From an uncultured Rhodospirillaceae bacterium (GTDB lineage: Bacteria; Pseudomonadota; Alphaproteobacteria; Rhodospirillales; Magnetospirillaceae), in the NCBI GenBank assembly GCA_903941105.1, contig CAJANL010000174.1, positions 1 to 56,758 on the forward strand: a stretch of 56,758 nt of DNA, read 5' to 3'. The notes under the pieces are model-generated. The model had not been told where the DNA came from. It worked only from the letters and a program-made list of their open reading frames with translations, and did not search any database. This document shows, piece by piece, positions 386-34,487 of the stretch (position 1 is its first letter; each line of letters opens with the position of its first letter). The translations under genes were made by a program, and so were the position numbers.

Positions 386-983
386 GACAGACCTCTTTCA
401 GGTAAAGGATGATTCCGGAGGGGTCCGAAACGGAGGGGACCCGGTCGAGGGTGATATTCCAATCTTTCGATGCCTGGGTCAATTCGTCTTCGCAGCCGCG
501 GCCCTTGAGAAACAGGCAAATCGCCCCCGCAGCGAGATGCGGCACCGCCCAATCCAGCAATTTCGACAACGGCGCCAGGGCGCGGGCGGTCACCACGTCG
601 GCGGCCAGCGGCGGCACCTGCTCGATGCGGCGGTTGATCACCGTCACCGTGGTACCGCTGACCCGGGCGGCCTCGCGCAGGAAGGCGCATTTGCGGGCGT
701 CGCTCTCCACCAGATGTACATCGGGCGCTCCCAGCACCGCCAGCACCAGGCCGGGGAAACCGGCGCCGCTGCCGAGATCCACCACCCGGCGAGCGGTGGG
801 CGGAATCAGCTCCAGCAACTGCGCCGAGTCGAGCATATGCCGCTGCCACAGCCGCGGCAGGGTATCGGGGCCGACCAGATTGATACGGGCCTGCCATCTG
901 ACCAGCAGGTCGGCATAGGCCGTCAGGCGCTCGATTGTTTCACGTGAAACACCAAGTGTGGTGGCAAACTCATCGGGGTCCAC
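372..983 (-). CDS. rsmG: 16S rRNA (guanine-N7) methyltransferase RsmG
   Basis: Methylates N7 of a guanine in the 530 loop of 16S rRNA, using S-adenosylmethionine. The 203-residue length is normal for the family. The SAM-binding motif DLGSGAGFPG is at residues 69-78, after the typical N-terminal NLVG segment (35-38). The GTG start at 983 has GGAG seven bases upstream. The DNA coding for residues 12-16 (VSRET) is itself a perfect parS site, a known quirk of this gene in several bacteria. It lies between mnmG and parA on the same strand and overlaps parA by 14 bp. Confidence 0.96.
   Translation of the reverse strand: MDPDEFATTLGVSRETIERLTAYADLLVRWQARINLVGPDTLPRLWQRHMLDSAQLLELIPPTARRVVDLGSGAGFPGLVLAVLGAPDVHLVESDARKCAFLREAARVSGTTVTVINRRIEQVPPLAADVVTARALAPLSKLLDWAVPHLAAGAICLFLKGRGCEDELTQASKDWNITLDRVPSVSDPSGIILYLKEVCRGRA
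936..951. other. parS centromere site 1 (inside rsmG)
   Basis: A perfect 16-bp palindrome TGTTTCACGTGAAACA, identical to the well-known ParB-binding consensus. It is embedded in the 5' coding part of rsmG, where it encodes VSRET. Confidence 0.95.
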
Positions 984-1007: not shown

Positions 1008-1023
1008 TGTTTCACGTGAAACA
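1008..1023. other. parS centromere site 2 (upstream of rsmG)
   Basis: A second perfect copy of TGTTTCACGTGAAACA in the short mnmG-rsmG gap, 56 bp from site 1. It lies just upstream of the rsmG ribosome-binding site, so ParB spreading could also affect rsmG-parA expression (inference). Confidence 0.95.
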
Positions 1024-1060: not shown

Positions 1061-2902
1061 CTACGCCGCCGCCCCCTTCTTCACATGCGCCAGCAACGCC
1101 GTCAACGCCGCCGGCGTCACGCCGGGGATGCGCCCCGCCGCCGCCAGGGTCGCCGGCACCGCCGCCTTCAGCTTGGCCCGCACCTCGTTGGACAGGGAAC
1201 AGATGGCGTCGTAATCCACCGCGGAGCCCAGCAGCAGCCCCTCCTCGCGGCGATAGGCGCGAATGTCGGCCTCCTGACGGCCGAGATAGCCGGCATAGCG
1301 CGCCTCGATTTCCAGTTGCTCCGCCACATCCGACGCGAACCCACCCAGCCCCGGCCAGACCTGCGCCAAGCGGACAAGATCGATGCCGGGATAGCCCAGC
1401 ACGTCGAAGGCACTGCGCACCACCCCGTCACGGTTGACCTCCAGCCCGGCGCGGCCCAGCACGGTGGGTGAGGCCCGCAACTCCCGCAGCAGTTGGCGCG
1501 CCGCCTCCAGGGCGGTGGATTTCTTGCGGAAGCGGTCCGATCGCAGCCCCCCGACACAGCCCACCGCCTCGCCCCGGGCGGTCAGCCGCAGGTCGGCGTT
1601 GTCGGCACGCAGCAACAGACGGTACTCGGCGCGCGAAGTGAACATGCGATAGGGTTCCACCGTCCCCAGCGTCACCAGATCGTCCACCAGCACCCCCATA
1701 TAGGCGTCGGCGCGGTCCAGGGTCAGGTTCCCCCTTGCCGCATTGACCCCCGCCAGCACCCCCTGCGCCGCCGCTTCCTCGTAGCCGGTGGTGCCGTTGA
1801 TCTGGCCGGCGAGGAACAGGCCCGGCACCCGACGGGTCTCCAGGGTGGGGTCAAGCTCGCGCGGATCGACGAAATCGTACTCGATGGCATAGCCCGGACG
1901 AATGATCTCCACCCGCTCCAGCCCGGGGATGGTGGCGATCATCGCCCGCTGCACCTCTTCCGGCAGCGAGGTCGAAATACCGTTGGGATAGACGGTGTGG
2001 TCGTCGAGCCCCTCGGGCTCCAGGAAGATCTGGTGCCGGTCACGCTCGGCGAAGCGCACCACCTTGTCCTCGATGCTGGGGCAATAGCGCGGCCCGGTGC
2101 TGGTGATCTGACCGGAATACATGGGCGCCCGCCCCAGATTGGCGCGGATGATGGCGTGGGTCGCCGCCGTTGTGGCGGTGATGCCACAAGCGACCTGCGG
2201 CGTGGTGATGCGGTCGGTGAGGAACGAGAACGGCCGTGGCGGCTGGTCGCCCTGCTGCATTTCCAGGCTGGCCCAATCGATGGTGCGGCCGTCGAGCCGC
2301 GCCGGGGTGCCGGTCTTGAGGCGGCCCAGCGCGAAGCCGCAGCGCTCCAGCGTCGCCGACAGGCCGGTGGAGGGCGCGTCGCCCATGCGGCCGGCCGGCC
2401 AGGTCCGTTCACCGAGATGGATCAAGCCGCGCAGGAAGGTGCCGGTAGTCAGCACCACCGCGCCGCAACCGATGCGGCGGCCGTCGGCCAGCACCACCGC
2501 CGCCACCCGCCCCTCCGCAAGCTCGATGTCCTCCACCGAAGCCGCCAGCAGGTCGAGATTGTCCTGCTCGTCGAGCAGCGCCCGCATGGCCTGGCGATAG
2601 AGTTTGCGGTCGGCCTGGGCGCGCGGCCCCTGCACCGCCGGTCCCTTGCTGCGGTTGAGCATACGGAACTGGATGCCGGCCCGATCGATGACGCGGCCCA
2701 TCAGCCCGTCGAGGGCGTCGATCTCGCGCACCAACTGCCCCTTGGCGAGGCCGCCGATGGCCGGGTTGCACGACATCTCGCCCACCGTCTCCAGCCGCTG
2801 GGTGACCAGCAGGGTGCGCGCCCCCATGCGTGCCGCGGCGGCTGCCGCCTCGCAGCCAGCATGCCCCGCCCCCACCACGATGACGTCGACGAATTGTTTC
2901 AC
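1061..2902 (-). CDS. mnmG: tRNA uridine-5-carboxymethylaminomethyl modification enzyme MnmG (GidA)
   Basis: FAD-dependent subunit of the MnmE-MnmG complex, which installs the (carboxymethyl)aminomethyl group on wobble uridine 34 of several tRNAs. The dinucleotide-binding motif GAGHAG is at residues 11-16, in the family-typical start [15 protein letters not shown]. The 613-residue length is close to the usual ~620-630. The start codon is GTG at 2902, and this codon and its flanks form part of a parS site, so initiation and ParB binding share bases. Its partner gene mnmE lies upstream, separated by 116 bp; rsmG and parA follow. Confidence 0.97.
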
Positions 2903-2910
2903 GTGAAACT
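2895..2910. other. parS centromere site 3 (overlapping the mnmG start)
   Basis: TGTTTCACGTGAAACT, one end base different from sites 1 and 2. The core palindrome TTTCACGTGAAA is intact. It covers the GTG start codon of mnmG (2900-2902). Confidence 0.9.
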
Positions 2911-4659: not shown

Positions 4660-4910
4660 CACGAAGTTTCGCGCTTGCGAGTGACACCGGCGAATTGAGC
4701 CCAGAACATCTTCTGAATCTGCTCCATTCCCTGCACCCCGGCCGGCAGCCAGGTCTTGATCATGGTCTCGGGGTCCATGGCGTGCAAGTTGGCGGTCATG
4801 CGATCCTGGATCTCCTTCATGACCGCATCCTGCATCGGCTTGACGTCGGGCAGGCCGAAGAAAGATCTCGCCTCTTCCGGGGTGCAGTCCACATCCAGAG
4901 TGATCTTCAT
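4659..4910 (-). CDS. DUF6489-type small conserved protein
   Basis: An 83-residue protein starting MKITLDVDCTPEEARSFFG and containing a WLPAG segment and a C-terminal MFWAQF motif. It resembles a small alphaproteobacterial family of unknown function (DUF6489, recalled from memory). The ATG at 4910 has GGAGAGG in ribosome-binding position. There is no signal peptide or membrane segment. It is the first gene of the leftward run into the ferredoxin, mnmE and mnmG, and is divergent from the YyaL-like gene across a 102-bp promoter gap. Function unknown. Confidence 0.75.
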   Translation of the reverse strand: MKITLDVDCTPEEARSFFGLPDVKPMQDAVMKEIQDRMTANLHAMDPETMIKTWLPAGVQGMEQIQKMFWAQFAGVTRKRETS

Positions 4911-5012
4911 GGCGTCCTCTCCCTGCCGTTCCATTCTTGTCATTCGACCTCGGCAACCCAAACTAAGCCTTTGAACCCTTACGCGCAACGCCCGCCCAAC
5001 CGAGGTATCCCT

Positions 5013-7028
<2,016 letters not shown>

Positions 7029-7037
7029 AGTCACGCC

Positions 7038-7487
7038 ATGCCACAGCTCGCCTTCAACAGCCCTGTCGGGCCCCTCACCCTGTCCGAAGAGGACGGCGTC
7101 ATCGTTTCGTTGGACTGGGGCTGGCCGCCCGACAGTGAGGAAACCCCTCTGCTGCTGAAGGCCCGCGACCAGCTGGAGGAGTATTTCGACGGCCGACGGC
7201 AGGCGTTCGACCTGCCGCTGGGCCCGTTCGGCACCGCCTTCCAGAAGCGGGTCTGGCAGGCCCTGGCCGCCATTCCCTTCGGTTCCATCCGCACCTATGG
7301 CGCACTGGCGGCCGAGCTGGGAACTGCGGCGCGTGCCCTGGGCGGCGCCTGCGGCCGCAATCCCATTCCCATCCTCATCCCCTGCCACCGCGTCCTGGCC
7401 ACCAATGGCGGCCTCGGCGGCTATTCCGGCATGGATGGGGTGGAGACCAAGCAGTTCCTGCTTCGACTGGAGGGGAAAACACCATGA
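7038..7487 (+). CDS. ogt: Methylated-DNA--protein-cysteine S-methyltransferase (Ogt type)
   Basis: Suicide repair enzyme that moves alkyl groups from O6-alkylguanine to its own cysteine. The active-site PCHR motif is at residues 115-118 (acceptor Cys116), preceded by NPIPILI and followed by the GGLGGYSGG-like segment. The helix-turn-helix region FGSIRTYGALA (81-91) is present. At 149 residues it is at the short end, with a reduced N-terminal domain. It lies 9 bp after the YyaL-like gene, and its stop overlaps the next start by ATGA, suggesting one transcript. Confidence 0.93.
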   Translation: MPQLAFNSPVGPLTLSEEDGVIVSLDWGWPPDSEETPLLLKARDQLEEYFDGRRQAFDLPLGPFGTAFQKRVWQALAAIPFGSIRTYGALAAELGTAARALGGACGRNPIPILIPCHRVLATNGGLGGYSGMDGVETKQFLLRLEGKTP

Positions 7488-8458
7488 CCAAGGCCATCCG
7501 CATCCACGACTTCGGCGGCCCCGAGGTCATGCGCTGGGAGGAGGTCGCCCTCGGCCACCCCGGCCCCGGCGAGGCGCTGGTGCGCCACACCGCGGTGGGG
7601 CTCAACTTCATCGACGTCTATCACCGCAGCGGCCTCTATCCCCTGCCCCTGCCCGCCACCCTGGGCATGGAGGGGGCTGGTGTGGTCGAGGCGGTGGGCG
7701 ATGGCGTCGGCGAGGTCCGCATAGGCGACCGCGTCGCCTATGCCAATCCGCCGCCCGGCTCCTATGCCGAGCGCCGCCTGATGCCGGCCCATCGTCTGGT
7801 GGTCCTGCCCAAGGACATCGACGACCGCCAGGCCGCCGCCATGATGCTGCAGGGCATGACCGCCCAATACCTGCTGCGCCGCACCTATCGGGTCGAGGCC
7901 GGCGAGACCATCCTGGTGCACGCCGCGGCCGGTGGCGTCGGCCTGATGATGTGCCAATGGGCCAAGCATCTCGGCGTCACGGTGATCGGTACCGTCGGCT
8001 CGGATGAAAAGGCCGAGCTGGCCCGTGCCCACGGCTGCGCCCATGCCATCGTCTACAGCCGCGAGAACTTCGTCGACCGGGTGCGCGAGCTGACTGAGGG
8101 CGCCATGGTGCCGGTGGTCTATGATTCGGTGGGCAAGGACACCTTCATGGGCAGCCTCGACTGCCTGCGACCGCTGGGCATGCTGGTATCGTTCGGCCAG
8201 TCATCGGGCAAGGTTCCGCCGCTGGATACCGGCCTGCTGGCGGCCAAGGGCTCGCTGTTCCTGACCCGCCCCAGCCTGATGACCTACACCGCCAAGCGCG
8301 AGGACCTGGTGGCCTCGGCGGCCGAGTTGTTCGACATGGTCGAGCGCGGCTTCGTGCGGGTCGAGGTCAACCAGACCTATCCCCTGGCGGAGGCCGCCCA
8401 GGCCCATCGCGACCTGGAGGGCCGCAGGACGACCGGTTCGACCGTGCTGTTGCCCTAG
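7484..8458 (+). CDS. Zinc-independent NADPH:quinone oxidoreductase
   Basis: A medium-chain dehydrogenase of the QorA/zeta-crystallin class, 324 residues. It shows the NADPH-binding motif AAGGVG (148-153), the VGLNFIDVYHRSGLYP segment typical of quinone reductases, and GMEGAGVV in place of the zinc-ligand region. It probably reduces quinones or related carbonyls with NADPH in the cytoplasm. The start overlaps ogt by 4 bp. Assignment to the family is firm; the natural substrate is not known. Confidence 0.93.
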   Translation: MTKAIRIHDFGGPEVMRWEEVALGHPGPGEALVRHTAVGLNFIDVYHRSGLYPLPLPATLGMEGAGVVEAVGDGVGEVRIGDRVAYANPPPGSYAERRLMPAHRLVVLPKDIDDRQAAAMMLQGMTAQYLLRRTYRVEAGETILVHAAAGGVGLMMCQWAKHLGVTVIGTVGSDEKAELARAHGCAHAIVYSRENFVDRVRELTEGAMVPVVYDSVGKDTFMGSLDCLRPLGMLVSFGQSSGKVPPLDTGLLAAKGSLFLTRPSLMTYTAKREDLVASAAELFDMVERGFVRVEVNQTYPLAEAAQAHRDLEGRRTTGSTVLLP

Positions 8459-10788: not shown

Positions 10789-11226
10789 CTAGAACGCCTT
10801 GGTGATCACCAGGATGACGACGCCGATCATCAACAGGGTAGGGACCTCGTTGACCATGCGGTAGAATTTCTCGCTGTGCCGATTGCGGTCGGCGGCGAAA
10901 TCGTTCTTACAGCGCACCAGAAAGACATGGCTGAGGGTCATCAGGACCACCAGCAGCAGTTTGACGTGGAACCAATGGGCGGCAAACAGGCCACCCTCCA
11001 CCGCCATCACCAGCCCCAGCGCCCAGGCCACGATCGCCGCCGGCGTCATGATCGCCTTGAGCAGACGGCGCTCCATCACCTTGAACAGCTCGGATGCCTC
11101 GGACCGCCTCGCCACTTGGGTGTGGTAGACGAACAGACGCGGCAGGTAGAGCATCCCGGCCATCCACGAGATCACCGCGATGACATGCAGGGCCTTCAGC
11201 CACAGATAGGTATCGCTGGACAGCAT
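10789..11226 (-). CDS. hemJ: Protoporphyrinogen oxidase HemJ
   Basis: A 145-residue integral membrane protein of the HemJ/UPF0093 family, which oxidises protoporphyrinogen IX to protoporphyrin IX in many alphaproteobacteria and cyanobacteria. It shows the typical N-terminal helix LWLKALHVIAVISWMAGMLYLPRLFVYH, containing the conserved His14, and three more hydrophobic segments (about 59-77, 85-105, 130-143). The ATG at 11226 overlaps the hemH stop by one base (TGATG). Its place directly after hemE-hemH puts it in the same terminal part of the haem pathway. Confidence 0.93.
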   Translation of the reverse strand: MLSSDTYLWLKALHVIAVISWMAGMLYLPRLFVYHTQVARRSEASELFKVMERRLLKAIMTPAAIVAWALGLVMAVEGGLFAAHWFHVKLLLVVLMTLSHVFLVRCKNDFAADRNRHSEKFYRMVNEVPTLLMIGVVILVITKAF

Positions 11227-12236
11227 CACCCCGGCTCCACCGGACAGCCGCACCCCAGCGTCCGGCACATCCTGCCGCCACCGCCGCCGGACGACCGCGC
11301 CACCTCGGCCAGGCCCGCGATGAAGCTGGAATGGCACCCCACCGCCGGCACCCGCACATAGGCGGGCACCCCCATCTCCACCGCCCGCTGCCGGTATTCG
11401 ATGTCGAGTTCCACCAGAGTCTCGGAATGTTCGGACACGAAAGCCACCGGCACCACCACCACCGGCACGCCATCGCGGCCGGCACGCTCCAGCTCTTTCT
11501 CAATGGAGGGGCCGATCCATTCCAGCGGTCCGACCCGACTCTGATAGCACACCACCCAATCCAGAAGAGGGATACCGGTCGCCGCCGCCACCGCAGCCGC
11601 GGTGCGTTCCACCTGCCGCTGATAGGGATCGCCGCGCTCGATCACCTTCTTGGGAAGTCCATGGGCGGAGAACAACACCCGTGGCCGTCCGCTATGGGCC
11701 GCCGCCTCATGACCGCTGCGCGCCAGTTCCGCCATGGCCGCCACCAAGCCATCCTGTTCGGGATAGCAGCACGCCACTTGCGTCGGTAATTCCAGCCCGC
11801 TCTGCCGCGCCGCCTCGGTCCACGCCTTGATCGAAGACCCGGAGGTGGTGGTGGAGAATTGGGGATAGAGCGGTAGCAAAATCACCCGATCGGCGCCCCA
11901 ATGCTTGACCGCCCATACCGCTTCCTCGGTCAATGGATGCCAATAGCGCATGGCGATGAAGCAGCGCCAATCGGTTCCCAACATCGCTTCCAGGGCGCGT
12001 GCCTGCGCCACCGTTTCCGCCAGCAGGGGCGAACGGCCGCCGATACGGGCATAAATCTTGCGGGCGACGGGAGCACGACGTTTGGATATCAGCTTGGCGA
12101 TCAGCCAGCGGATGGGCTGCGGTACGCCGATGATGGCCGGATCGGAAAACAGGTTGAACAGGAACGGCTCGACCGCCTCGGGGCTGTCCGGCCCACCAAG
12201 ATTGAAAAGAACAACGGCAGTTTTCACCCCCGCCAT
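11226..12236 (-). CDS. hemH: Ferrochelatase
   Basis: Inserts ferrous iron into protoporphyrin IX, the last step of haem b synthesis. The family signature FSAHGLPKK carries His192, the presumed metal-path residue, and [11 protein letters not shown] (268-278) holds the second catalytic acid. Length 336. The C-terminus ends with a cysteine-rich MCRTLGCGC (Cys324, 329, 331), with another Cys301 in VGCHSS. Some alphaproteobacterial ferrochelatases carry a [2Fe-2S] cluster, and these residues could be its ligands (inference). It overlaps the hemE end by 13 bp. Confidence 0.96.
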
Positions 12237-13312
12237 CCTTTGACCCGTTCAGCCAGCCGGGCCACGTTCTCCGGCGGCGTCTGCGGTACGATGCCATGGC
12301 CGAGGTTGAAGATGAAGGGGCCATGGCCCAGCGTCCGCAGGATGTGATCGATACCGGCGTCGAGCGCCGCACCGCCGGCCACCAGCAGGATGGGGTCGAG
12401 ATTGCCCTGCACCGTGCATTTCGGCTGCAAGCGTTCCGCCGCCCAAGCCAGCGGGACCGACGAATCCAGCGAAATGCCGTCGACGCCGGTTTCGGTGACG
12501 TAGCGCTCGTAGAGGATGCCGGCCTGGCGCGGGAATCCCACCACCGGGATACCGGGCCGTTCGCTCCGGATGCGCTCGACCAGGGTCCGCATGGGGGCGA
12601 TGGCCCACCGTTCGAATTGGTCCTCGGGCAGCGTCCCGGCCCAGGTGTCGAACACCTGGATCGCTTCGGCGCCGTGATCGATCTGCCGGATCAGGTAATC
12701 GCCGGTGGCGGTGGTCAGCAGCTCCATCATCCGGGCGAAGATTTCCGGCTCGGACCACATCAGGCGCTTGGTATGGGCGAAGTCCTTGGAGCCACCCCCT
12801 TCGACCATATAGGTCGCCACCGTCCAGGGCGCCCCGGCGAAGCCGATCAGGGCGGTGGTGGGGGGGATGGCCTTGGACAAGGTCTTGACGGTCTCGTAGA
12901 CCGGTGCGAGGTGCTGGTGCAGGCCCGAGATGGTGAGACCATTCAGATCACTTGCCGAGCGAATGGGCGTCAACGCCGGTCCTTCGCCCTCGCGGAAGGT
13001 GACCTTCTGGCCGAGCGCGTCGGGAACCACCAGAATGTCGCTGAACAGGATGGCGGCGTCGAAGTCGTAGCGCCGCAGTGGCTGCAGGGTGACCTCGGTG
13101 GCCAGGGCGGGATTGTAACACACATCGAGGAAGCTGCCGGCGCGTGTCCGGGTCTCGCGGTATTCCGGCAAATAGCGACCTGCCTGACGCATCAGCCAGA
13201 AGGGTGGGGGGGTCAAGGTCTCGCCGGCCAGGGCGCGGAGATAACGCTTCGTCGGTGGGGAGCGATCGGTCACGGGGAGCCTCTGGGCCGGGGGTTTTCC
13301 GGTGACCGTCAT
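12224..13312 (-). CDS. hemE: Uroporphyrinogen decarboxylase
   Basis: Decarboxylates the four acetate chains of uroporphyrinogen III. The signature [15 protein letters not shown] appears near the N-terminus, with [14 protein letters not shown] and the [20 protein letters not shown] active-site segment downstream. From the ATG at 13312 it has 362 residues, slightly long. A GTG at 13273, with AGAGG seven bases upstream, would give 349 residues, nearer the family norm, so the true start may be there. It is first of the hemE-hemH-hemJ operon and borders the putative replication origin, as in Caulobacter and other alphaproteobacteria. Confidence 0.95.
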
Positions 13313-13438
13313 ACAGTCTTTAGTTCTTTTAGGAAAGATTGCTGTATTTAGTGGATGGCTGTGGAAGGTGGGGATTGGCCATTGTCCCCATGTTTTCCCC
13401 TGTCTCATCCCAAAGTGTCGGGGGATGGTGTTCTCGCG

Positions 13439-13447
13439 TGTGGAAAA
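13439..13447 (-). promoter_or_regulatory. DnaA-box-like nonamer
   Basis: TGTGGAAAA on the plus strand (TTTTCCACA on the minus), one mismatch from the consensus TTATCCACA, inside the hemE/DUF299 gap. Confidence 0.5.
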
Positions 13448-13674
13448 CCTGGAGTCACCACCGTCAATACCCTGACCCGTCTCCCGAAAGCCATAGCCTG
13501 AAAGGCGGGATAAGTCGGGGGAAATCGGGTGTCATACCCGGTGATTCACGCTATCCTTCCCTCGGTGACCTCCGGTTTTGGACAGGGGGGCACCCATGTT
13601 CATCGCCGGGACACGGATGGGGACGGAATTTGGCCCTTCCCCGCCGACCCCCCGGTTATCCCCGGAATTGCGAC

Positions 13675-13683
13675 TTACCCACA
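13675..13683 (+). promoter_or_regulatory. DnaA-box-like nonamer near the DUF299 start
   Basis: TTACCCACA, one mismatch from TTATCCACA, ending four bases before the DUF299 ATG. It could link DnaA binding to expression of that gene (inference). Confidence 0.5.
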
Positions 13684-13687
13684 GGCC

Positions 13688-14515
13688 ATGACCAGCTTCC
13701 ACCTCCATCTCGTCTCCGACGCCACCGGTGAGACCGTCGCCTCGGTGGCCCGTGCCTGTATGGCTCAGTTCGAGGGTGTCCACCCCATCCAGCACAACTG
13801 GTGGTTGGTGCGCACCCAGGCCCAGGCCGAGCGTGTCATCGCCGGCATCGAGGAGCATCCCGGCATCGTGCTGTTCACCGTGGTGGATGGCGGCGTGCGT
13901 GGCGTGCTGGAGGAGGCCTGCCGTCATCTCAAGGTGCCGTGCATCCCCCTGCTCGATCCCGCCATGGCGGCGCTGGCCGGCCATCTCGGTGTCGAGATGC
14001 AGCACAAGCCCGGCCGGCAGTACCAACTCGATGCCGAGTATTTCCGCCGCATCGACGCCATGCAGTTCACCCTGGCCCATGACGACGGCCAGTTGATGGA
14101 GGACATCGAGGATGCCGACATCGTGCTGGTGGGGGTGTCGCGCACCTCGAAGACGCCGACCTGCATGTACATCGCCAACCGTGGGCTGAAATGCGCCAAT
14201 TATCCGCTGGTTCCCGGCGTGCCGTTGCCGCCGCAGCTGGAAGCCGTCAAGGCGCCGCTGGTGATCGGGTTGACCAAGGACCCCAAGAGCCTGTCGGAAA
14301 TCCGCCGCGCCCGGCTGCGTCTGCTCAACGAGCGTGAAGAGACCGAATACGCCCAATTCGAGAAGGTCAAGGAGGAGGTGCAGCAGGCTCGCCGCCTGTT
14401 CTCCCGCCATGGCTGGCCGGTGGTGGACGTCACCCGCCGCTCCATCGAGGAGGCCTCGGCCACCATCATCCAGCTCTATGCCCAGCACGCCGGGCTGGAG
14501 TCGAGCTCGTCGTGA
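13688..14515 (+). CDS. Bifunctional kinase/pyrophosphorylase regulating pyruvate phosphate dikinase (DUF299)
   Basis: Family enzymes phosphorylate (with ADP) and dephosphorylate pyruvate, phosphate dikinase or PEP synthase, switching it off and on. The start FHLHLVSDATGET and the P-loop GVSRTSKTP (149-157) are the family hallmarks; 275 residues is normal. I start at ATG 13688 because the conserved N-terminus begins there; the open frame continues upstream into the putative origin without family similarity. It is the first rightward gene from the origin, followed by maf with a one-base stop/start overlap. Confidence 0.94.
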   Translation: MTSFHLHLVSDATGETVASVARACMAQFEGVHPIQHNWWLVRTQAQAERVIAGIEEHPGIVLFTVVDGGVRGVLEEACRHLKVPCIPLLDPAMAALAGHLGVEMQHKPGRQYQLDAEYFRRIDAMQFTLAHDDGQLMEDIEDADIVLVGVSRTSKTPTCMYIANRGLKCANYPLVPGVPLPPQLEAVKAPLVIGLTKDPKSLSEIRRARLRLLNEREETEYAQFEKVKEEVQQARRLFSRHGWPVVDVTRRSIEEASATIIQLYAQHAGLESSSS

Positions 14516-33080: not shown

Positions 33081-34487
33081 TCAGCCATCGACCCGGCCGT
33101 AGACGTCGTCCATGCGCACGATGTCGTCCTCGCCGACATACTCGCCCGATTGAACCTCGATCATCCTGAGCGGCAGCTTGCCGGGGTTCTCGACCCGGTG
33201 CACCGTGCCGGCCGGGATGAAGGTCGACTCGTTCTCGCGCAGCTGGAAGCGGTCGTCGCCGCGGGTGACCAGCGCGGTGCCGGTGACCACCACCCAATGC
33301 TCGCTGCGATGCCAATGCTTCTGCAGGGATAGTTTCGCCCCCGCATCGACCTGGATGTGTTTGACGCGGAAACGCGGGCCTTCGTCGATGGTCTGGAACC
33401 AGCCCCACGGCCGCCAGGTGCGTGAGCCCTGGCTGGCTTCGGGGCGGCGTTTCGACTTGAGCGCCTCGACGATGGCCTTGACGTCCTGGTCGTGCGCCTT
33501 GTCGGCCACCAGCACCGCGTCGTCGGTGGCGACCACCACCAGATTGTCGAGCCCGACGGCGGCCACCAGACGGCCTTCACTGCGGAGGTAGGAGTTGCGG
33601 CTACCTACCGCGATGACGTCGCCCAGCACCACGTTGCCGTCGCCGTCCTGCGGGCTTTCCTGCCACAGGGCCGACCATGAGCCGATGTCCGACCAGCCCA
33701 TCTCCACCGGCACCACGGCGGCGCGGTCGGTGTGTTCCATCACCGCGTAATCGATGGACTGGCCCTTGAGCCCGGCGAAGGCGGCCTCGCCCAGGCGGAA
33801 GAAGAACAGGTCGCGGGCGCCCTCGGTCAGGGCGCGGCGGCAGCCCTCCACCATCTCGGGATTGCGGGCGGCCAGTTCGTCGAGATAGAGCCGGGCGGGG
33901 AACAGGAAGATGCCGCTGTTCCAGGTGTAGTCGCCCGAGGCGACATAGGCCTCGGCGGTGGCGAGGTCGGGCTTCTCGACGAAGCGGTCGACGACGAAGC
34001 CATCCCCCAGCGCCGCGCCGCGCTTGATGTAGCCGTAGCCGGTGTTGGGGCCGGTGGGGCGGATGCCGAAGGTGACCAGGCGGCCCTGGCGTGCCAGGGG
34101 CACCGCCGCCTCCACCGCGCGGGCGAAGGCCGCGTCGTCGCGCACCATGTGGTCGGACGGCATCACCAGCATCAGGGCGTCGGCCTCGTCCGCCAGCAGC
34201 AGGGCCGAGACCGCCGCCGCCGGGGCGGTGTTGCGGCCCACCGGCTCGATCACCACGGCGCGCGGTTCGACGCCGATCTCGCGCATCTGCTCGGCGACGA
34301 TGAACCGGTGCTCGTGGTTGCACACCACGATGGGGGCGGTGCCGACCCGCCGGGCGGTATCCTGCAACAGGGTGCGCTCGGAATAGAGCGGCAGCAGTTG
34401 TTTGGGCCGCAGCTCGCGCGACAGCGGCCATAGACGGGTGCCGGCGCCGCCCGACAGGATGACGGGAACGATGTCGGCCTTAACCAT
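33081..34487 (-). CDS. manC: Mannose-1-phosphate guanylyltransferase / mannose-6-phosphate isomerase
   Basis: Makes GDP-mannose. The 468-residue bifunctional protein starts IVPVILSGGAGTRLWPLSRE with the nucleotide-binding motif at 11-21; the C-terminal cupin carries QKHWHRSEHWVVVTGTA and IPAGTVHRVENPG. I use the ATG at 34487, where the family begins; it overlaps the end of fcl by 8 bp, so the two are coupled. The product feeds GDP-fucose or other GDP-sugars. Confidence 0.95.
   Translation of the reverse strand: MVKADIVPVILSGGAGTRLWPLSRELRPKQLLPLYSERTLLQDTARRVGTAPIVVCNHEHRFIVAEQMREIGVEPRAVVIEPVGRNTAPAAAVSALLLADEADALMLVMPSDHMVRDDAAFARAVEAAVPLARQGRLVTFGIRPTGPNTGYGYIKRGAALGDGFVVDRFVEKPDLATAEAYVASGDYTWNSGIFLFPARLYLDELAARNPEMVEGCRRALTEGARDLFFFRLGEAAFAGLKGQSIDYAVMEHTDRAAVVPVEMGWSDIGSWSALWQESPQDGDGNVVLGDVIAVGSRNSYLRSEGRLVAAVGLDNLVVVATDDAVLVADKAHDQDVKAIVEALKSKRRPEASQGSRTWRPWGWFQTIDEGPRFRVKHIQVDAGAKLSLQKHWHRSEHWVVVTGTALVTRGDDRFQLRENESTFIPAGTVHRVENPGKLPLRMIEVQSGEYVGEDDIVRMDDVYGRVDG

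Follow-up and report, generated by a model that had tools for sequence, protein, structure and literature searches.

Two genes of the window, hemE and a DUF299 gene, diverge from a short gap, which raises the question of whether chromosome replication starts there, as a sequence-only reading of this DNA had proposed. The window is the whole stretch analysed, 56,758 nucleotides, and corresponds to contig C174 of a draft genome of 340 contigs and 4.48 Mb (99.75% complete, 6.31% contamination). With high confidence, the gap at 13274–13687 is the chromosomal origin, at which DnaA would be bound at both ends, the duplex is predicted to open on the hemE side and two forks would set out. The proposal is supported by the gene junction, an excess of DnaA boxes, a paired box module, unstable DNA and nearby parS-type sites, and it narrows the predicted Magnetospirillum-like origin to a 414-base gap with a short list of boxes.

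The hemE/DUF299 junction and its limits

Pfam searches identified hemE (URO-D), ferrochelatase, UPF0093 and Rho leftward from the gap, and DUF299/PPPase, Maf, AroE, CoaE and an RNase T exonuclease (dnaQ-type) rightward. This bears out the gene order originally read from the letters, with hemE running leftward and DUF299-maf-aroE-coaE-dnaQ rightward. MnmE, MnmG and RsmG/GidB lie farther left in the window. The mnmE–rho interval contains plus-strand genes at 4695–8458 for a DUF255/DsbH-like protein, an O6-methylguanine methyltransferase and a zinc alcohol dehydrogenase. The junction comprises the following features.

12224..13273, minus strand: hemE (URO-D; Pfam PF01208, E 6.6e-121), GTG start at 13273 preferred from conservation
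13274..13687, no strand: predicted oriC, the hemE/DUF299 intergenic gap, with divergent flanking genes and conserved blocks
13688..14515, plus strand: DUF299/kinase-PPPase gene (COG1806; Pfam PF03618, E 1.8e-94)

The gap had been given as 13313–13687. Its right limit holds, as the DUF299 start, the ATG at 13688, is backed by relatives; its left limit is probably better placed at 13274. The GTG at 13271–13273 appears likelier as the hemE start than the ATG at 13310–13312, because 13312–13377, in which elements resembling boxes and a track occur, is strongly conserved as DNA. The gap measures 414 bp with the GTG start and spans 13313–13687 with the upstream ATG. In tblastn searches with an hemE query lengthened upstream, the first matched residue varied between 2 and 53.

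Conservation of the junction in the class

A DUF299 protein search returned eight loci from named genomes, the six most similar being labelled Terasakiella, Magnetospirillum (three), Phaeospirillum and Rhodospirillaceae. Among the relatives with a DUF299 match, 32 of 33 in the family were included (G021 was left out), as were 17 of 21 in the order (G042, G047, G048 and G050 left out) and 68 of 97 other class genomes (29 left out); a DUF299 match was absent from 44 of the 143 class genomes searched. Three duplicates (L011, L013 and L020) were left out of the locus set. Divergent hemE and DUF299 were found at 117 of 123 distinct loci, comprising 53 of 55 in the family and order (including the window), 28 of 28 in the class and 36 of 40 in a further class set. 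The claim that alphaproteobacteria place oriC at this junction agrees with how widely the junction is kept. The other six loci (L008, L009, L182, L201, L202 and L207) had no hemE beside DUF299 within the available sequence. One of them, L008, is on a contig labelled Candidatus Marinimicrobia, and its DUF299 protein shares 58% identity with that of the window; the label may be wrong, and the 5.4 kb upstream of its DUF299 gene contain no hemE. The 117 gaps form three sets, 36 from the family, 17 from other families of the order and 64 from the class. Shuffled controls preserve dinucleotides and not relatedness, and the family gaps are mutually non-independent.

The closest described counterpart is Cori of Caulobacter crescentus, a region of ∼400 bp flanked by hemE and COG1806 with DnaA boxes and an AT-rich stretch (PMC1914354). 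Compared with this description, the window gap is alike in flanking genes, in its size of ∼400 bp, in its DnaA boxes and in its AT-rich stretch. The Rickettsia prowazekii origin is reported to share the hemE/COG1806 flanks, with a gap of 384 bp (PMC1914354). It is very likely that the window gap is an origin of this known hemE/COG1806 kind, one without CtrA sites.

Since hemE and DUF299 diverge, promoters are expected in the gap, and it could be a shared promoter only, with DnaA acting as a transcription factor and the origin lying elsewhere. The gap between the same two genes in Caulobacter, reported as an experimentally identified origin (PMC1914354), argues against this explanation, as does the evidence presented below.

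DnaA boxes are concentrated in the gap

Unless otherwise stated, a DnaA box was defined as a site with up to one mismatch from TTATCCACA. The boxes of the gap, including weaker and box-like sites, are the following.

13360..13368, minus strand: weak DnaA box CCTTCCACA, three mismatches, in a conserved block
13369..13377, minus strand: weak DnaA box CAATCCCCA, three mismatches, abutting the box at 13360..13368, in a conserved block
13382..13390, plus strand: weak DnaA box TTGTCCCCA, inverted relative to the box at 13369..13377
13439..13447, minus strand: DnaA box TTTTCCACA, one mismatch
13656..13664, plus strand: DnaA-like box TTATCCCCG, member of the DUF299-proximal pair
13675..13683, plus strand: DnaA box TTACCCACA, one mismatch, member of the DUF299-proximal pair, reading TTATCCACA in many relatives

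The two one-mismatch boxes predicted at 13439 and 13675 were both verified, and they exceed shuffles of the gap (mean 0.1), two boxes being reached in 0 of 200. The weak boxes that had been mentioned without positions were located at 13360..13368, 13369..13377 and 13382..13390; the first two are each three mismatches from TTATCCACA, and at the first the upper strand reads TGTGGATAA in many relatives. The whole window holds five boxes at one mismatch against 2.4 expected. The excess is far larger across relatives: 105 boxes in the 36 family gaps (shuffle mean 2.6, maximum 5 in 20 shuffles), 48 in the 17 order gaps (mean 3) and 158 in the 64 class gaps (mean 6, maximum 10 in 20 shuffles). Such an excess in family, order and class gaps alike speaks against a function as promoter only. 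The clustering is local, because TTWTNCACA shows no genome-wide enrichment in the window's own genome (37 sites, versus 43 for a reversed control). Cori is described as having weak G- and W-boxes (PMC4468827), whereas TTATCCACA occurs in many of the family gaps.

The strongest conserved box block is at the DUF299 end, where a paired module, TTATCCCCG-N10-TTATCCACA, is found. With up to three mismatches allowed, the module matches once in the window's own genome, in the window gap with one mismatch, and its reversed-pattern control does not match. A perfect copy is present in 20 of the 61 genomes searched, one per genome, and 19 of the 20 are inside the hemE/DUF299 gap; the sole copy elsewhere is that of an order relative (G037:C45:19761-19788). 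The spacing of the pair is 19 bp in 29 of the 36 family gaps and differs in the other seven, being 20 bp in two of these. The 19-bp pair is not class-wide, being present in 0 of 17 order gaps and 1 of 64 class gaps.

Unstable DNA lies on the hemE side

By nearest-neighbour energies, one stretch of the gap is the least stable among all 56,719 forty-mers of the window.

13311..13350, no strand: predicted DNA unwinding element, AT-rich and hemE-proximal, the least stable 40-mer

This forty-mer coincides with the AT-rich patch earlier noticed at 13313–13350. The arrangement is general, as the least stable 40-mer lies within the hemE-proximal third in 100 of the 117 gaps (26 of 36 family, 14 of 17 order and 60 of 64 class). 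A class-wide position of unstable DNA on the hemE side again argues against the promoter-only explanation.

parS-type sites, GC skew and the position of dnaA

Three palindromic parS-type sites were found to the left of the gap.

936..951, plus strand: parS-type site TGTTTCACGTGAAACA
1008..1023, plus strand: parS-type site TGTTTCACGTGAAACA
2895..2910, plus strand: parS-type site with one mismatch, at the start of mnmG

A scan of the window allowing up to three mismatches gave seven strand matches versus 0.15 expected, namely the three palindromes on both strands and one three-mismatch match at 10958. The parS sites earlier placed 10–13 kb away agree with these sites at 936, 1008 and 2895, which are 10–12 kb from the gap; in G018 and G027, two relatives with finished genomes, the corresponding distance is 9–12 kb, and ∼8 kb is reported for Caulobacter (PMC6399470).

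GC skew was sampled coarsely in the two finished relatives, with twenty 12-kb samples each. Its sign switches at 2.54–2.76 Mb in G018, bracketing the gap at 2.678 Mb, and at 3.10–3.30 Mb in G027, where the gap at 3.389 Mb is 89–289 kb off. A skew minimum elsewhere had been named as an observation that would speak against the origin. The cumulative minima are displaced: in the window the minimum is at 33,716, 20 kb right of the gap, and relative to the gap it is at +30 kb in G018 and at −133 kb in G027. All of them belong to flat plateaus that include the gap; in continuous 400-kb stretches the G018 plateau spans about −1 to +79 kb and that of G027 −141 to +39 kb. The flatness of these plateaus prevents finer placement of the origin by skew. 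The skew therefore agrees with an origin in the zone of the gap and does not single out the gap itself. With parS-type sites close by and the skew of both finished relatives fitting an origin in this zone, it is very improbable that the gap is a promoter only. KOPS-like octamers were considered as an independent replichore marker and rejected, being few and pointing away from the gap in both finished relatives (1.22–1.38 Mb in G018, 2.88–3.30 Mb in G027).

The dnaA gene of the window's own genome sits on another contig, C285. Origins linked to dnaA are common among bacteria, and the origin could likewise adjoin dnaA here. The distance from dnaA to the hemE gap is 2.0 Mb in G018 and 0.98 Mb in G027, off the skew switch in both. 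Consistently, dnaA is reported as non-conserved near the origin in Rhodospirillales (PMC8116508). A dnaA-adjoining origin thus has next to no likelihood. In G018 the gene (G018:C1:675493) is near the point opposite the gap on the 4.55-Mb chromosome.

CtrA, IHF and GANTC sites

Cori is described as containing five CtrA sites. In contrast, the TTAA-N7-TTAA site was found neither in the window gap nor in any of the 36 family or 17 order gaps, and 7 of the 64 class gaps have it. For a looser form the counts are 0 of 36 family, 6 of 17 order and 17 of 64 class gaps. Because none of the 36 family gaps carries TTAA-N7-TTAA, CtrA is predicted not to gate the origin in the gap. According to the remarks of one review, CtrA sites have not been seen in alphaproteobacterial origins besides Caulobacter and possibly Rickettsia (PMC4468827), so their absence does not count against an origin; it does count against Cori-like control of it. 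The IHF consensus, scanned in two forms as a consensus only, has no match in the window gap and matches in 1 and 4 of the 36 family gaps. The Rickettsia prowazekii origin, reported to be 82.5% AT with proposed CtrA and IHF sites, differs in this respect from the window gap, where neither was found.

The GANTC sites noticed from the letters are present at two positions.

13452..13456, plus strand: GANTC site
13543..13547, plus strand: GANTC site

Two such sites alone are unremarkable and lend the origin weak support. GANTC is strongly depleted over the whole window (82 versus 194 expected). It is enriched in the family gaps (91 versus 68 in shuffles, the maximum of 30 being 86) and in the class gaps (187 versus 126, maximum 144), with no clear enrichment in the order gaps (31 versus 27, maximum 37).

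A three-base track beside the hemE-side boxes

By eye, the class gaps show AT-rich DNA, then a run like AAAGGTAGTTGTAGT, then weak lower-strand DnaA boxes. Read 3′ to 5′ from the box, the run is a three-base repeat, G-x-T, which resembles the DnaA-trios of bacterial origins. The basal unwinding system of B. subtilis is described as a DnaA box, a spacer and DnaA-trios of 3′-GAT-5′, and a rule that demands a middle adenine predicts a DnaA-trio system in 1755 of 2070 origins (PMC8287927). In the B. subtilis trio the middle A is reported to be conserved and held by Asn187, with C replacing it well and G or T impairing function (PMC10721633).

The published rule was applied as a search for runs of three or more consecutive 3′-NAN-5′ trios, no farther than 16 bp from a DnaA box in which two mismatches were allowed. 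Such runs lie hemE-ward and DUF299-ward about equally often, in 9 and 10 of the 36 family gaps, 8 and 11 of the 17 order gaps and 23 and 25 of the 64 class gaps, respectively; shuffles have them in 2, 4 and 7 gaps, and the real gaps were higher on both sides. The rule was therefore dropped as a locator of the track, and scoring was switched to positions 1 and 3 only. The window gap has no such run in either direction, so the window is not assigned to the published DnaA-trio system.

The track scan scored runs of five adjacent triplets lying no more than 16 bases from a lower-strand box, boxes being defined against TTATCCACA, TTATCCCCA and TTATCCCCG. A G-x-T track scoring at least 8/10 was found hemE-ward in 67 of 117 gaps (19 of 36 family, 14 of 17 order and 34 of 64 class) and DUF299-ward in none, compared with about 1 of 117 in shuffled sequence. 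A full-GAT score of at least 11/15 was reached hemE-ward in 31 of 117 gaps, with none DUF299-ward and none in shuffles. In 56 of the 67 gaps with a G-x-T track, the least stable 30-mer is at the track or just hemE-ward of it. Two gaps of ∼880 bp, double the usual length (L168 and L169), had no track evident by eye in the printed stretch. Among the titles and abstract openings listed for alphaproteobacterial DnaA-trios, none described the G-x-T pattern.

The middle base of the triplet stands outside the selection criterion. Among 254 matching triplets it is A in 95, T in 90, G in 68 and C in 1, whereas in 1506 G-x-T contexts outside tracks it is A in 10%, T in 27%, G in 35% and C in 28%. Relative to this background, A is favoured and T slightly so, with G tolerated and C excluded. 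The Fisher value for the depletion of C, 5e-32, overstates certainty because the sequences share ancestry. In the class set alone, mostly with one or two genomes per family, the proportions among 131 middle bases are similar to these (A 40%, T 38%, G 21%, C 1%).

These tracks are like the B. subtilis system as described (PMC8287927, PMC10721633) in having a box, a short spacer, a three-base track, weak duplex and a single polarity. They also share the G and T positions of 3′-GAT-5′, and the middle A is favoured over background. They are unlike it in the middle base, which is A, T or G to the exclusion of C, a base reported as functional in B. subtilis (PMC10721633). By this analogy, opening of the gap probably resembles the DnaA-trio system with class-specific variation. 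The patterns suggest that duplex opening is sequence-directed in much of the class, with a base code unlike that of the B. subtilis model; a different code would explain why the middle-adenine rule does not discriminate between the two directions.

The gap could instead be an origin in which the track plays no part, with weak duplex and looping from the DUF299-side pair driving the opening and the track owing its form to some other constraint, for instance strand composition or the promoter of hemE. Several observations are in line with this: the window's own track is degenerate, G outnumbers A at the middle position of the family tracks, and the middle-adenine rule does no better hemE-ward than DUF299-ward. 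The prevalence of G at position 1 (91–94%) and T at position 3 (76–85%) is built in by the selection of the scan. The middle base, which was not selected, argues the other way, as C falls from 28% outside tracks to 1 of 254 inside them and A rises from 10% to 37%; so does the fixed polarity of 67 hemE-ward tracks against 0 DUF299-ward among 117 gaps. A track without a role is possible, if on the unlikely side.

The track of the window and a model for opening

The corresponding element of the window is as follows.

13337..13359, plus strand: degenerate DnaA-trio-like track GATTGCTGTATTTAGTGGATGGC, homologous to the tracks of relatives and weak in the window itself

Read 3′ to 5′ leftward from the box at 13360 in the homologous register, the track gives GTA GGT GAT, after which the register is lost. 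With no slip allowed, its score is equalled by 89 of 300 shuffles. Allowing a one-base slip raises the score to 10/12 (2 of 300 shuffles); this score was discarded as support because its register differs from the homologous one. The track is 23 bases long in ten Magnetospirillum-like gaps, those of the window and of L002–L004, L006, L007, L015, L016, L018 and L019, and 22 bases long in 19 family gaps. As an element of this genome, the window track is suggested by homology.

The steps of opening that follow box recognition are modelled on Cori and on the B. subtilis system. DnaA would first occupy the DUF299-side pair, whose 19-bp spacing is about two helical turns, and the hemE-side boxes at 13360–13390, and would also fill the scattered boxes of the gap. 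The oligomer on the hemE side would then extend toward hemE on the upper strand along the three-base track and melt 13311–13350, where the helicase would be loaded. Since the window track loses register after about two trios, DnaA may grip it loosely and depend more on the weak duplex.

DnaA residues and a possible base code of the track

The alphaproteobacterial DnaA proteins examined differ from that of B. subtilis at the residue that holds the middle base. The position aligned to B. subtilis Asn187 is aromatic in all 35 proteins examined (Tyr in 32, Phe in 3; L040–L044 and L215–L244), which are the best-scoring 30 of 57 matching class genomes and five others. In the best-scoring 28 DnaAs from other classes of Pseudomonadota (L245–L272), the position is Ala in 15, Gln in 10 and Thr in 3.

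A tentative reading is that the class uses its own version of the DnaA-trio, a 3′-G[A/T/G]T-5′ array on the hemE side that points toward hemE and is read by a DnaA with an aromatic residue in place of Asn187. If so, the middle base would be stacked on Tyr or Phe and no longer recognised via its amino group, and the aromatic residue would tolerate A, T and G and reject C, so that the B. subtilis preference is inverted. A joint change of code in the initiator and its single-stranded site would then date to the base of the class, and the array would have slipped register by one base in the Magnetospirillum branch, the window included. The proposed code is less stark than it would otherwise be, as A too is commoner at the middle of the track than in the background. 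Its value is that it ties one specific DnaA residue to one specific DNA position.

Upstream of dnaA in the 28 loci of the other classes, three of which had insufficient upstream DNA, two tracks scoring at least 8 were found, with no clear signal. Many of these comparator genomes may have their origin away from dnaA, so the link between residue 187 and the middle base rests on one class. It is a class-wide correlation that probably reflects a single evolutionary event and is no demonstration.

At the positions of B. subtilis Asn187, Arg202 and Glu228, the DnaA of the window's own genome has Tyr, Lys and Glu. All 35 alphaproteobacterial proteins have Lys at position 202 and Glu at position 228, and position 202 is also Lys in the best-scoring 28 proteins of the other classes.
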